Shown here: positions 3,400-7,455 of the stretch, piece by piece
Numbering within the stretch: position 1 is the first letter of the stretch
Layout: each line of letters starts with the position of its first letter
Assembly (NCBI GenBank): GCA_013361595.1
Contig: JABFXT010000417.1
Span: 1 to 17,327, forward strand
From: Nocardia sp.
GTDB lineage: Bacteria > Actinomycetota > Actinomycetes > Mycobacteriales > Mycobacteriaceae
Direction: 5' to 3'
Length of the DNA stretch: 17,327 bases
Program-made: the position numbers and the translations under genes
Notes under the pieces: generated by a model
Seen by the model: only the letters and a program-made list of their open reading frames with translations
What the model was told of the DNA's origin: nothing
Databases searched by the model: none

Positions 3400-4734
3400 G
3401 TGAGTTCTCTGCGCGTGGCCGGTACGGCAGTGCCGGCCTCCAGTCAGCTTTTCCAGCGAGCCGAAGCGGTTGTTCCCGGCGGGGTCAATTCCCCGGTGCG
3501 AGCCTTCGGTTCGGTGGGCGGCACGCCGAGGTTCATCACATCCGCCCGCGGCTGTCTGCTCACCGACGCGGACGGTCACGATTACGTCGATCTGGTGTGC
3601 TCATGGGGGCCGATGATCCTCGGGCACGCGCATCCGGCGGTGGTGGCGGCGGTCCGTGAGGTCGCCGGGTCCGGACTGTCCTTCGGGGCGCCGACACCGG
3701 GCGAGGTGGAGCTGGCCGAGCTCATCGTCGAGCGGGTGGCTCCGGTGCAGAAGGTGCGCCTGGTGAATTCCGGCACCGAGGCGACCATGAGCGCGGTCCG
3801 GTTGGCGCGCGGCTACACCGGCCGCACCAAGATCATCAAATTCGCCGGTTGTTATCACGGTCATGTCGACGCCCTGCTGGCCGATGCCGGCTCCGGGGTG
3901 GCCACGTTCGGATTGCCGACCTCGCCCGGCGTCACCGGCGCCCAGGCGGCCGACACCATCGTGGTGCCCTACAACGATCCGGACGCGGTGCGCGCCGCTT
4001 TCGAAGCGAACCCGGGCGAGATCGCCGCGGTGATCACCGAGGCCGCCGCCGGCAATATGGGCGCGATCGCGCCGCTGCCCGATTTCAATGCCGGACTGCG
4101 CCGGCTCACCGCCGATCACGGCGCGCTGCTCATCATGGACGAAGTGATGACCGGCTTCCGGGTGAGCGCCTCGGGCTGGTACGGGATCGATCCGGTCGCC
4201 GCCGACCTCTACACCTTCGGGAAGGTGATGAGCGGTGGGTTGCCCGCGGCCGCGTTCGGGGGCCGGGCCGATGTGATGGACCGGCTGTCTCCGCTGGGTC
4301 CGGTGTATCAGGCCGGCACCCTGTCCGGGAACCCGGTCGCCGTGGCGGCCGGGCTCGCCACGCTGCGCGCCGCGGACGACGCCGTGTACGCCGCGCTGGA
4401 TCGCAACAGCGAACGACTCGGGATTCTGCTCACCGAAGCCCTCACCGGCGCGGGGGTCCCGCACCGGGTGCAGTTCGCGGGCAATATGGTGAGCGTGTTC
4501 TTCGCCGATGAACCGGTACTCGACTACGCCGCCGCCAAGGCGAGCGCGACCTGGCGTTATCCGGCCTTCTTCCACGCGCTGCTCGACGGCGGGGTGTACG
4601 CGCCGCCCAGTGCGTTCGAGGCCTGGTTCGTCTCGGCCGCGCTCGACGACGCCGCGTTCGACCGAATCGCCGCAGCCCTGCCCGCCGCCGCCGAAGCGGC
4701 CGCGAGCGCCACACCCGAAGGAAATCGCGCGTGA
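3400..4734 (+). CDS. hemL: Glutamate-1-semialdehyde 2,1-aminomutase
   Basis: PLP-dependent transfer of the amino group in glutamate-1-semialdehyde, giving 5-aminolevulinate, the substrate of HemB, in the C5 pathway. With the GTG start at 3400 the product is 444 aa. Family hallmarks are [12 protein letters not shown] near the N-terminus, [17 protein letters not shown] (cofactor phosphate region), CYHGHVD, and the PLP lysine Lys275 in [17 protein letters not shown]. An in-frame ATG at 3349 would add 17 residues, and TTG/GTG codons lie further upstream; homology begins after about residue 14 of my model. GGAGG lies only 2 nt before the GTG, but CAAACT (-10-like) ends 7 nt before it, so a leaderless start is possible. 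The stop overlaps the next GTG (GTGA, 4731-4734). Confidence 0.95.
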
Positions 4735-5522
4735 GCAAGCCCGACCCGGAGCGCGTATCCACCACCCCGGACGACCGGGGCACCACCTCGTCCCCGGCCG
4801 CGCCGGTGACCCCGCCGGAAACCGGCGCCGACCTCCCGGCTTCCGGTCAGGTCGCCCCCAACGCACCGTCGACCGGTTCGGCCGGTTCCGAAGCGGTCGA
4901 AACCATCGTCCACGTCCTGCGGCACGGTGAGGTGCACAATCCGCGCGGCATCCTGTACGGCAGACTGCCCGGATTCGGGCTGTCGGTCACCGGCCGCGCC
5001 CAGGCCGGCGCGGTGGCGCGATCCCTGGCCGATCACGATATCGCCCTGGTCATCGCCTCGCCGTTGCAGCGTGCGCAGGAAACCGCCGAACCCATCGCGG
5101 GTGAGCACGGGCTGATCGTGCGCACCGACGAGAACCTCATCGAAGCCGGTAACACCTTCGAGGGCCTGCGCGTATCGGTCGGTGACGGTGCGCTGCGCAA
5201 ACCCCGGCACTGGTGGAAGTTGCGCGATCCGTTCACCCCGTCCTGGGGCGAGCCGTATCTGCAGATCGCGCACCGTATGCTGGCCGCGGTGAACAAGGCC
5301 CGGGTGGAGTCGGCCGGTCGTGAGGTCGTGCTGGTCTCCCATCAGCTTCCGGTGTGGACGCTGCGCCGGTTCCTGCAGGGGCAGCGACTGTGGCACGATC
5401 CGCGCGCCCGGCAGTGCGGTCTGGCCTCGCTCACCTCGCTGGTGTACCGGGGCGACACGCTCGTCGATATCGTCTACTCCGAGCCCGCGGGCGGTTCGGA
5501 CCCGACGGTGCACGGCGCATGA
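4731..5522 (+). CDS. Histidine phosphatase (phosphoglycerate mutase-like) with disordered N-terminal extension
   Basis: 263 aa, starting at the GTG that overlaps the hemL stop. The histidine phosphatase core begins near residue 58. It carries RHGE (64-67, catalytic His65), the [10 protein letters not shown] block with Arg114, the acid Glu138 in LIEAG, and the second histidine His204 in VSHQLPVW. These are the residues of the acid-phosphatase/mutase superfamily; the substrate cannot be read from sequence and a true glycolytic mutase is unlikely. The first 55 residues are Pro/Thr/Ser/Ala-rich and probably disordered. The gene recalls Rv0525, which lies between hemL and the cytochrome c maturation genes of M. 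tuberculosis (from memory). Its stop overlaps the first unit of the downstream repeat. Confidence 0.88.
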
Positions 5523-5592
5523 ACGGTCAGCGTCCGGAGGCGGTAGCGCAGCGTGACCACGCAGGGCGCCCGTTCGTGCGCCGGAGGGCAGA
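5515..5592 (+). repeat. Direct repeat unit 1 (78 bp) between the phosphatase and tlpA genes
   Basis: Begins with GCGCATGAAC at the phosphatase stop codon. Its first 59 positions match unit 2 at all but one position (C5562 versus T5640). It contains GGAGG (5536-5540) and a hairpin, GGCGC (5565-5569) with GCGCC (5578-5582), whose 8-nt loop is CCGTTCGT. The unit is 26 codons long and open in the frame that starts at ATG 5519. Confidence 0.9.
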
Positions 5593-5674
5593 GCGCATGA
5601 ACGGTCAGCGTCCGGAGGCGGTAGCGCAGCGTGACCACGTAGGGCGCCCGTGCGCCATCGGGTGGAGCGCATGA
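5519..5674 (+). CDS. Possible 51-aa minicistron made of two repeat units
   Basis: Starts at ATG 5519, which overlaps the phosphatase stop (ATGA, 5519-5522), and ends at TGA 5672-5674, which overlaps the next ATG. The peptide contains [14 protein letters not shown] twice, at residues 1-14 and 27-40, each followed by (A/V)GRP. The internal ATG 5597 has its own Shine-Dalgarno (GGAGG, 5583-5587, 9-nt spacing) and could start a 25-aa version. The peptide is polar and basic, with no hydrophobic segment. The stop/start overlaps suggest translational coupling, but the frame may simply be an open stretch of a DNA or RNA repeat. Confidence 0.3.
   Translation: MNGQRPEAVAQRDHAGRPFVRRRAERMNGQRPEAVAQRDHVGRPCAIGWSA
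5593..5666 (+). repeat. Direct repeat unit 2 (74 bp)
   Basis: Near-identical copy of unit 1. The length difference is a 4-nt deletion in the loop of the internal hairpin, which here is GGCGC (5643-5647), loop CCGT (5648-5651), GCGCC (5652-5656). The last 10 bp before unit 3 have diverged (ATCGGGTGGA here, GGAGGGCAGA in unit 1). Loss of 4 nt changes the frame so that the coding stretch ends at the TGA overlapping the next unit's ATG. Confidence 0.9.
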
Positions 5675-5706
5675 ACGGTCTATGCCCGGAGGCAGAGAAC
5701 AGATGA
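5667..5706 (+). repeat. Partial third repeat unit carrying the tlpA ribosome binding site
   Basis: The first 14 nt (5667-5680, GCGCATGAACGGTC) match units 1 and 2. After a short diverged stretch, CCGGAGGC matches again. GGAGG at 5688-5692 lies 10 nt before the tlpA ATG at 5703 and is its likely Shine-Dalgarno. Confidence 0.7.
5671..5706 (+). CDS. Possible 11-aa leader minicistron ahead of tlpA
   Basis: ATG 5671 overlaps the stop of the preceding minicistron. The frame reads MNGLCPEAENR and stops at TGA 5704-5706, overlapping the tlpA ATG (ATGA, 5703-5706). Only a weak GGAG (5664-5667, 3-nt spacing) precedes it. It may serve to couple translation into tlpA, or may be a chance frame in the repeat remnant. 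Confidence 0.2.
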   Translation: MNGLCPEAENR

Positions 5707-6320
5707 GACGAGGTGCGACATTCGGGTTCCGGCTCTTGCCGGCGCTCGTCGCCCTGCTGTGTCTGACCGCTTCGGCGTGCTCGACCGGTACCGACGCGGT
5801 GGCCACCGGTGGCACCTTCGAATTCGTCTCGCCGGGCGGGCAGACCGATATCTTCTACGATCCGCCGTCCGCGCGTGGCACGATCGGCAAGCTCGCCGGC
5901 CCGGACCTGATGTCCGACGACGGTGCGAACGTATCGGTGGACGATTTCCCGGGCCAGGTGGTCGTCGTCAATCTGTGGGGGCAGTGGTGCGGGCCCTGCC
6001 GCGGCGAAGCCCCCGCGCTCGAACAGGTCTACGAGCAGACAAAAGATCTCGGGGTCGCTTTCCTCGGGATCAATGTCCGTGATTTCCAGCAGGACAAAGC
6101 ACGAGATTTCATTATCGATAACCACGTCGGTTATCCGTCGATCTACGACCCGTCGATGCGCACGCTGCTGGCGCTCGGTGGAAATTTCCCGACCAGTGTC
6201 ATTCCCACAACTCTGGTATTGGATCGGGACCACCGGGTAGCGGCGGTTTTCTTGCGCGCCCTACTCGCAGAAGATCTTTTACCGGTGGAGCAACGCATCG
6301 CCGCGGAGGGAGCATCATGA
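5703..6320 (+). CDS. TlpA/ResA-like thioredoxin-fold lipoprotein for cytochrome c maturation
   Basis: 205 aa. The N-terminus is a lipoprotein signal: MRRGATFGFR, a hydrophobic core, and a lipobox ending at Cys26 (TASAC). The thioredoxin fold begins near residue 80 (VVVVNLWGQWCGPCRGEAPAL), with the redox pair Cys96-Cys99 in WCGPC and the cis-proline Pro168 in VIPTTLVLD. The family is predicted to reduce apocytochrome c CXXCH thiols on the outer face of the membrane, taking electrons from CcdA (the ResA/CcsX role). The ATG at 5703 is chosen over an in-frame ATG at 5682 because GGAGG sits 10 nt upstream and the signal peptide then starts with Arg-Arg. The stop overlaps the next ATG (6317). Confidence 0.92.
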   Translation: MRRGATFGFRLLPALVALLCLTASACSTGTDAVATGGTFEFVSPGGQTDIFYDPPSARGTIGKLAGPDLMSDDGANVSVDDFPGQVVVVNLWGQWCGPCRGEAPALEQVYEQTKDLGVAFLGINVRDFQQDKARDFIIDNHVGYPSIYDPSMRTLLALGGNFPTSVIPTTLVLDRDHRVAAVFLRALLAEDLLPVEQRIAAEGAS

Positions 6321-6568
6321 GAAGTCTTCGATCCCGAGGCGTACGCCGCTACGGGGCGACCCGGCCCCCGCGCGGCGTCCGCGCCGAGGTGCTGGTCAAA
6401 TCCTCGCTCGGTTCGTGGGAGCTACAGCCCGCGACCCAGCAGCACGGCAGTGACCGGCGGGTGTCGAGTTCGCGCCCGTCGGGTGGCCGGGGCTCGACCG
6501 CGCCGGGTGGCCGCGACGAGCGGCGCGCGAACAACTCCGAAGGTGAAGCGGAGCGTAGTTCGCGTTGA
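6317..6568 (+). CDS. Small Arg/Ser-rich ORF between tlpA and ccdA
   Basis: 83 aa, strongly basic (Arg/Gly/Ser-rich, for example [20 protein letters not shown]), with no hydrophobic segment and probably disordered. It fills the whole tlpA-ccdA gap. Its ATG overlaps the tlpA stop (ATGA, 6317-6320) and its TGA overlaps the ccdA TTG (TTGA, 6565-6568). After the first eight or so codons the third positions are mostly G/C, as in its neighbours. These features favour a real coupled gene, but the composition is also what GC-rich non-coding DNA can give, and I recognise no family. If it is not coding, the gap is a 244-nt spacer inside the operon. Confidence 0.4.
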
Positions 6569-7455
6569 CGGTACTGGCAGGAGTGGGGGAATCGTTTCAG
6601 CAGACAGCGGCCACCGGGCCGTTGCTGCTCGCCCTCGGCGCCTGCCTGCTGGCCGGATTGGTGTCGTTCGCCTCGCCGTGTGTGGTGCCGCTGGTGCCGG
6701 GGTATCTGTCCTACCTGGCCGGTCTCGTCGGCGCGCAGGCGCCGCCGGCGACCGTGGAGCAGGTTCGGCGCGGCCGGACCGCGACGCCCGCGGGCGCGAG
6801 CACGACGGCGGTGCTCACCGAGACCTCCGTTGTCGCGGATACCGCCCCGGCGCCCGTTCCCGATTCGGGACGTCTGCGGGTCGCCGGCGCGGCCGGACTG
6901 TTCGTCGCCGGTTTCACGGTGGTGTTCGTGCTGGCCACCGCCACTGTCTTCGGCCTCATCCAGACTTTGAACGTCAACCGGGATCTGTTGCAGCGCCTGG
7001 GCGGCGTGGTCACCATCGTGATGGGCCTGGCCTTCCTCGGCCTGATCCCGGCACTGCAGCGTGATACCCGGATGGAACCGCGGCGCCTCGCCGGAATCGC
7101 CGGAGCGCCACTGCTCGGGGCTGTCTTCGCCCTCGGCTGGACTCCGTGCCTGGGCCCGACACTGTCCGGGGTGATGGCGGTGGCCGCCGGTACCGAGGGC
7201 ACCACCGCGGTGCGCGGTGTGGCCTTGATCGTCGCCTACTGTCTCGGGCTCGGGCTGCCGTTCGTGATCCTGGCCTTCGGGTCGGCGAGCGCGCTGCGCG
7301 GGGTCGGCTGGTTGCGGCGTAATTCCCGCCGGATCCAGGTGATCGGCGGAATTCTGCTGGTCGCGGTGGGTGCCGCCCTGGTGACCGGGGCCTGGGATCA
7401 GTTCGTCGGCTGGGTGCGCGACGGATTCGTCGCCGAGGTGACGCTGCCGATATGA
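6565..7455 (+). CDS. ccdA: CcdA-type thiol-disulfide transporter (cytochrome c biogenesis transmembrane protein)
   Basis: 296-aa polytopic membrane protein of the DsbD-beta/CcdA family. It moves electrons from cytoplasmic thioredoxin to the extracytoplasmic TlpA/ResA-like thioredoxin. The two redox cysteines are Cys39 in [20 protein letters not shown] and Cys195 in [14 protein letters not shown], each in the expected Pro-Cys context. About six transmembrane segments are readable. The loop after the first segment (about residues 57-108) is long, Ala/Thr/Pro-rich and probably disordered. The TTG at 6565 overlaps the stop of the preceding small ORF, and GGAG (6550-6553) lies 11 nt upstream; GTG 6583 is an alternative. 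The stop overlaps the resB ATG (ATGA, 7452-7455). Confidence 0.93.

Follow-up and report, generated by a model that had tools for sequence, protein, structure and literature searches.

A dispersed, hairpin-forming repeat at stop/start overlaps of Nocardia operons probably fills a phosphatase–tlpA gap

What fills the gap between the histidine phosphatase gene and tlpA in the 17,327-nt stretch of Nocardia sp. DNA analysed here (the window)? Probably two units and part of a third from a MIRU-like repeat family dispersed in Nocardia, which would have entered, or been amplified at, a 4-nt stop/start overlap and which would pass translation onward. On our best reading, the window contains one occupied junction of a genus-wide, hairpin-forming repeat that is predicted to be transparent to translation. 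At the level of predicted frames, the unit has an open frame, its ATG overlaps the stop of the gene upstream, and its length is mostly 0 or 2 modulo 3: lengths of 0 modulo 3 yield an N-terminal extension of the predicted downstream frame, and lengths of 2 modulo 3 end on the next predicted start.

Architecture of the window array

The array (Table 1) lies in an operon in which an aminotransferase gene (hemL in the original prediction) and the histidine phosphatase gene are followed by tlpA and by ccdA-, resB- and ccsA-like genes, the ccdA-like Pfam match scoring below the Pfam cut-off. The two near-identical units that had been described at 5515-5592 and 5593-5666 were recovered, with 58 of their first 59 positions equal and 97% agreement over 62 nt, as was a partial third unit at 5667-5706. 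Both minicistrons claimed for the array, of 51 aa from ATG 5519 and of 11 aa from ATG 5671, were found, and the stop/start overlaps are exact ATGA words at 5519-5522 (the phosphatase ORF ending at 5522), 5671-5674 and 5703-5706. Units are spaced by 78 nt, which stays in frame, and then by 74 nt, which leads into a stop/start overlap. The tlpA start at 5703 matches the starts in N. fusca and N. grenadensis; an alternative in-frame ATG lies at 5682.

Table 1. Features of the array between the phosphatase gene and tlpA in the window
Feature	Position	Strand	Basis or remark
Histidine phosphatase (His_Phos_1) gene	4731..5522	+	TGA stop within ATGA 5519-5522
Unit 1 hairpin	5514..5582	+	R1 model match and fold
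Unit 1 5′ arm, GGCGCATGAACGG	5514-5526	+	holds start codon
Unit 1 3′ arm, CCGTTCGTGCGCC	5570-5582	+	one mismatch
51-aa frame over units 1 and 2	5519..5674	+	translation
Unit 2 hairpin	5592..5659	+	68-nt R1 match; 3′ arm degraded
Partial third unit	5667..5706	+	ATGA overlap at 5671, CCCGGAGG at 5685-5692, then tlpA start
11-aa frame MNGLCPEAENR (second hop)	5671..5706	+	stop overlaps tlpA start
GGAGG, Shine-Dalgarno-like	5688..5692	+	10 nt 5′ of tlpA ATG; duplex -9.5 kcal/mol
tlpA, thioredoxin-like, lipoprotein judged from N-terminus	5703..6320	+	

Single units have a strong predicted fold; the array as a whole gains modestly over shuffled sequences (z -2.17, 8 of 200 shuffles as good), with pairing between units. 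Tandem Repeats Finder, at its threshold, did not report the array, which another repeat search did detect, and an Rfam search of positions 5300-6000 returned no match at E<=1.

Further 4-nt DTGA overlaps occur along the operon (4731-4734, 6317-6320, 6565-6568 and 7452-7455), which is therefore rich in potential sites for such elements. Between tlpA and the ccdA-like gene, a small ORF of ~83 aa (6317-6568) is chained to its neighbours through ATGA and TTGA overlaps, and similar ORFs follow tlpA in several relatives. Elsewhere in the window, Tandem Repeats Finder detected a 25-bp tandem repeat of 2.7 copies (19-85) close to where the first ORF begins, an ORF which from its translation we take to be hemB-like.

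A repeat dispersed through the genus

The ~75-bp unit is dispersed. Searched against the draft genome of the window, the 78-nt unit gave 25 matches at E<=1, the weakest of them probably due to chance; three lie in the window itself, and outside it 15 matches reached E<=0.001. R1, a covariance model that we derived from 13 copies, found 27 matches at E<=1 in the same genome, two of them within the window. Among 60 related genomes scanned, R1 had matches in every one of the 36 that belong to this genus, among them the genome of the window, at 1 to at least 83 per genome (high counts being lower bounds, as at most 84 candidates were scored in each), and in none of the 24 other genomes of the order. 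Across the family, 22 of 251 genomes and 2 of 31 genera carried matches, the match outside the genus being a single 66% complete genome with 5. The dispersed copies for which the original prediction had proposed to search are thus present in every same-genus genome scanned, and at many loci across them. Its suggestion of a duplicated leader, in turn, proved wrong: the unit is a dispersed repeat, not a local leader.

A phage collection held no match to the repeat at E<=0.001, and in a plasmid collection one Nocardia farcinica record carried it at 24 places that bear no annotation. In the part of the open-licence literature that was covered, by title and beginning of the abstract, we found no description of the repeat in Nocardia.

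The phosphatase–tlpA junction in relatives

Eighty TlpA loci were kept from named genomes (77 Nocardia, 3 Rhodococcus), a share from which we take the genus whose genomes R1 matches to be Nocardia, and 78 of the loci include the end of the phosphatase gene. An R1 element occupies the gap in 11 of these 78 readable relatives, with unit numbers ranging from 0 to 4 across all of them. Multiple units are found in N. rhamnosiphila (2), N. testacea (3), N. paucivorans (4) and one Nocardia sp. (2 and a bit), and a single unit in N. grenadensis, two N. carnea, N. speluncae, N. thailandica, N. cyriacigeorgica and N. uniformis, the last with a weak match (E 0.0011) and extra sequence inside. Of the other 67 relatives, 66 have on the phosphatase stop a DTG whose frame continues straight into TlpA (52 ATGA, 14 GTGA), N. 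fusca being the exact empty counterpart of the window junction; the lone exception is a third N. carnea, in which a chained remnant of 6 aa is left.

The phosphatase stop is where the unit frame starts at each of the 11 filled sites, and no gap follows: at five of them the frame runs on, in phase, into TlpA, and at six it terminates in the DTGA from which TlpA starts, the window junction itself taking two hops. Two inserts at this site measure exactly 77 bp. The comparison of unit number and frame among relatives, suggested at the outset as a check, thus reveals lengths and numbers that differ around a continuous path that is kept at every filled junction.

Two side observations concern the same operon. 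In N. carnea NBRC 14403 (L087:2093-2161) and N. speluncae (L093:1973-2041), an extra unit lies just 5′ of the phosphatase gene and represents a second occupied junction. The phosphatase–tlpA gap of N. aurea (L128) contains a different tandem repeat of ~24 bp, CACGCCGTTCCACGGCACATATGT-like.

Position, orientation and frame across genomes

For a genome-wide view, 120 loci from same-genus genomes were pooled with the own-genome loci, giving 209 units in 146 arrays at 89 sites after merging of homologues; the 209 units are what remained of 234 matches once the 3 weakest, 2 duplicates and 20 from the named TlpA loci (analysed separately) had been removed. Loci were picked from the high-scoring matches listed, a choice that under-represents weak or decayed copies, and some of the counts depend on one another through the kinship among homologous sites and among tandem copies.

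At the unit start, 103 of the 146 arrays read ATGA and 12 GTGA. With stop positions and the junction class taken from a GC3-based gene caller, an upstream same-strand gene was called for 88 arrays; its stop is the TGA of the start word in 59 and forms TGA-C-DTG in 9 more. The called genes gave no confirmation of an upstream stop at the DTGA for 46 of the 89 sites. The 43 stop/start sites, counted with one array each, comprise 21 fused in frame to the next gene, 11 with a DTGA overlap, 4 ending near a start and 7 in which no intact chain to the next gene was found; over all 68 stop/start arrays, the same classes hold 35, 15, 9 and 9. As the GC3-based caller gave wrong strands at some loci, orientation was counted with a codon-usage caller instead: of the 110 flanks that could be called, 104 share the strand of the unit (68 of the 178 flanks of the 89 sites were uncallable), and none of the 89 sites has both flanks on the opposite strand. 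Tandem units mostly follow one another at 75 nt (53 of 63), which is simply the unit length, and otherwise at 78 (4), 81 (2), 74 (2) or 77 nt (2). Spacings of 1 modulo 3, the class that would break the chain, are absent (0 of 63).

Not one of the 112 units at called stop/start junctions has an in-frame stop; their other two frames contain stops in 112 and 87 units. Frame-broken copies at non-coding sites had been named as what would speak against coupling, and such copies do exist but are few, with an in-frame stop in 3 of 97 units outside called junctions, in a sample that leans towards high-scoring matches. What holds of the claim of uninterrupted coupled translation is, at the level of sequence, a continuous reading path through the filled junctions and their units. 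Rarity of T at the variable base where it would create TAG (1 of 188) was considered as a sign of anti-stop selection and set aside, T being nearly as rare (2 of 188) at another variable base where no stop arises. GGC precedes DTGA at 33 of 75 targets versus 16 of 124 bare junctions, a preference that we set aside as evidence because many of the bare junctions are orthologues of one another.

Fusions of this kind carry a warning for annotation, in that units can append 25-aa repeat extensions to predicted N-termini or conceal real starts. They do reach the databases: one protein begins with two units fused to a sequence that, by its look, we take to be dihydroorotase-like.

Conservation of the hairpin and alternative explanations

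What is conserved in the unit? It forms a 23-pair hairpin that shows covariation and holds the start codon inside its outer stem. In an alignment of the best 150 of 158 matches, whose rows are related and whose fit to the structure favours the hairpin, 95.9% of hairpin cells are paired, as compared to 34.8-47.5% with partners slid by 1-3 (147 distinct rows), and 183 cells have changed on both sides of a pair versus a mean of 33 in shuffles. Within the outer helix, 10 of 12 pairs show changes on both sides.

That the units encode a functional small repeated peptide, one of the options raised originally, is very improbable. The frame is open in all 112 called-junction units, as a peptide would demand, but mean entropy in the unit core amounts to 0.42, 0.52 and 0.20 bits at codon positions 1, 2 and 3 (188 distinct units); the third position varies least, the reverse of coding conservation, and it is the hairpin arms that co-vary. 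Furthermore, the 51-aa peptide had no homologue at E<=0.001 among ~5.8 billion proteins, in a search that relies on common 5-residue words, and Pfam yielded nothing for it at E<=1. Does the strong covarying hairpin then mark an RNA or DNA element that acts independently of translation, such as an mRNA stabiliser, an attenuator or a REP-like protein site? We consider this quite unlikely, for the near-absolute co-orientation with flanking genes, the open frame with its spacing rule, and the placement at stop/start words all argue against it.

The array might also be a domesticated regulator that tunes TlpA relative to the phosphatase, with unit number serving as a slow switch in the manner of a variable-number repeat. 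The spread from 0 to 4 units at this junction among relatives would suit such a role, as would the GGAGG of the window remnant, whose duplex of -9.5 kcal/mol compares with a mean of -5.8 for 16 empty sites. However, the downstream starts of 6 of the 11 filled relatives scored -3.5 to -6.3, none with a gain, 67 of the 78 relatives lack the element, and the unit is also present in many unrelated operons, all of which makes a regulator an unlikely explanation. Supply of a Shine-Dalgarno sequence as a general function of the unit was likewise rejected, being clear in the window alone.

Proposed mechanism of coupling

We favour a repeat that spares the coupling it interrupts. Ribosomes ending the phosphatase would open the hairpin, initiate anew at the ATG that overlaps their stop and pass through the unit or units to tlpA, either by fusion (0 modulo 3) or through a further overlap (2 modulo 3). 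The outer stem may mask de novo initiation at the unit start, and tlpA would therefore remain coupled to upstream translation. The element may persist because it is nearly transparent to translation, and one of this kind could spread through overlapping operons at low cost. In the window, the 78-nt unit, the 74-nt unit and the 32-nt remnant would turn fusion into two short hops, thereby keeping the repeat peptide off the TlpA signal peptide and letting TlpA retain its own N-terminus.

If true, this widens the idea of operon-invading, coupling-sparing repeats from mycobacterial MIRUs to Nocardia, where many natural insertions, empty sites and copy-number variants are available for comparison. 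A hairpin that encloses the stop/start word, moreover, offers a testable coupling mechanism.

Matching of the 3′ arm to the stop/start word

The matching between the arm of the hairpin and its flank is real. The outer arm pairs with the stop/start word and the three bases upstream, and no further: among first units of 69 nt (137 of 146, representing 84 non-redundant sites), complementarity of the left flank to the 3′ arm lies far above permutation at -3, -2, -1, D, T and the final A (z 6.6 to 9.9) and is absent at -4 and beyond, the G of DTGA being invariant on the left side. At the tlpA junction, including the window, the host base at -3 (7 C, 5 G) finds its match in the arm in 12 of 12 cases, as do the bases at -2 and -1, and within DTGA the match holds in 11 of 12 at D and 9 of 12 at both T and the final A. 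The AAA-ATPase junction reads CGGATGA in 8 of the 9 nearest empty sites, and CGG is found in both flank and arm of 6 of the 7 filled copies, the remaining one combining a GGCGTGA flank with a matching arm. At the biotin-carboxylase junction, four filled copies share the flank GTCCTGA and nearby empties are mostly GGCATGA or AGCATGA, with one GTCATGA; a further copy (L333) combines a GGC flank with a GTC arm. Filled flanks at the qcr junction are mostly GACATGA or GACGTGA, unlike the empties. With the flank being non-native in 2 of the 4 junctions examined, it may come with the element or be rewritten by it. In later tandem units, the arm at -3 agrees with the first flank of the array in 27 of 34 informative cases, with the left flank of the unit itself in 2 and with neither in 5; these copies, however, are for the most part young, and GGC is in any event the arm most often seen. 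Arm type was also tried as a subfamily marker and dropped, with no significant link to core similarity (p 0.16).

How did arm and flank come to match? Candidate origins are guided insertion, copying, compensatory selection and template-switch palindrome correction, the last of which acts on imperfect palindromes and would also yield matched arms. Base-pair-guided insertion, with the 3′ arm as a guide that selects a target NNNDTGA, is conceivable, though we hold it to be doubtful. Pairing that extends to -3 and ends at -4 across the 84 sites is what a guide would leave behind, and the same can be said of the arm that follows the host base at -3 throughout the tlpA junction, of the CGG shared by empty and filled AAA-ATPase sites and of the tandem arms that fit the first flank of their array. 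Yet the flanks at the biotin-carboxylase and qcr junctions are not the native ones, arm type has no predictive value for core similarity, and the tandem argument is weakened by young copies and the prevalence of GGC; there is no known transposase, Y1/RAYT occurring in 4 of 22 same-genus genomes, and compensatory selection or template-switch correction would give matched arms, too.

A further reading, which we hold to be less likely than not, is that these genus-wide repeats are portable coupling locks, in which a 3′ arm complementary to the NNNDTGA of the junction would sequester the start until upstream ribosomes finish, and in which the match might stem from the insertion event, through base-pair guidance or through copying between arm and target in either direction, and not from drift. 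The sharp 7-nt arm match provides a handle on how such repeats move.

Comparison with known repeat families

MIRUs are described as dispersed repeats of 40-100 bp with tandem copy-number variation (PMC12548453, PMC4473831, PMC2734929, PMC4213456), said to insert at start codons with -4 nt spacing such that the contained ORF becomes coupled (PMC12548453). Their listed hallmarks are a lack of dyad symmetry, small ORFs overlapping the neighbours and a common orientation with contiguous ORFs (PMC4473831), and one paper restricts them to M. leprae and the M. tuberculosis complex (PMC4213456). The Nocardia repeat is similarly oriented with its flanking genes (104 of 110 called flanks) and falls into the same range of size and copy number, with spacings of 74-81 nt and 0-4 units at one junction; the two tlpA-site inserts of exactly 77 bp recall the 77-bp MIRU repeats of senX3-regX3. 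Overlap with ORF ends is shared in part: upstream it is exact in 59 of 88 arrays, plus 9 with a 1-nt gap, and downstream 11 of 43 sites overlap, with 21 of 43 fused in frame instead. In contrast to MIRUs, the Nocardia repeat is a strong hairpin, and its units are most often spaced by 75 bp, which gives an in-frame fusion, not by 77 bp, which gives a separate minicistron. By analogy, it appears to work like a MIRU, yet we do not file it as one because it has dyad symmetry and because the comparison rests on descriptions, not on sequence.

Rickettsia palindromic elements are palindromic repeats that lie in frame within protein genes, and in both respects resemble the present family; they differ in sitting inside coding regions, not at stop/start junctions. 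Dispersal and hairpin formation are features shared with REP/RAYT systems, whose palindromes are extragenic and follow no rule of gene direction, but REPs measure 20-40 bp (PMC3733652), and the Nocardia unit is ~75 bp long, strictly oriented and tied to stop/start words. A REP/RAYT-type Y1 enzyme as mobiliser was rejected, as PF01797 is found in just 4 of 22 same-genus genomes and orientation also speaks against it; the domain is absent from genomes G000, G019 and G020 despite 22, 81 and 65 repeat matches, G000 being only 78% complete. Enterobacterial RU-1/2/3 are small, mobile, MITE-like and ORF-carrying elements that keep the frame on gene fusion (PMC2759123) and in this resemble the Nocardia repeat, although at 103-168 bp they are longer, and the abstract describing them does not mention stop/start overlaps (PMC2759123).

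A second type of insert, unlike R1, runs from ATGA to ATGA at the biotin-carboxylase and qcr junctions of some genomes (L324, L396). Its 17-nt motif GCCGAGCGCCAGCGAGG occurs 72, 43 and 40 times in three same-genus genomes, as compared to 0-1 occurrences of a reversed control (1 mismatch allowed, both strands), and the tandem spacings listed for it include 80, 77 and 81 nt, with one pair at 55. The GCCGAGCGCCAGCGAGG inserts possibly constitute a second family of coupling repeats.
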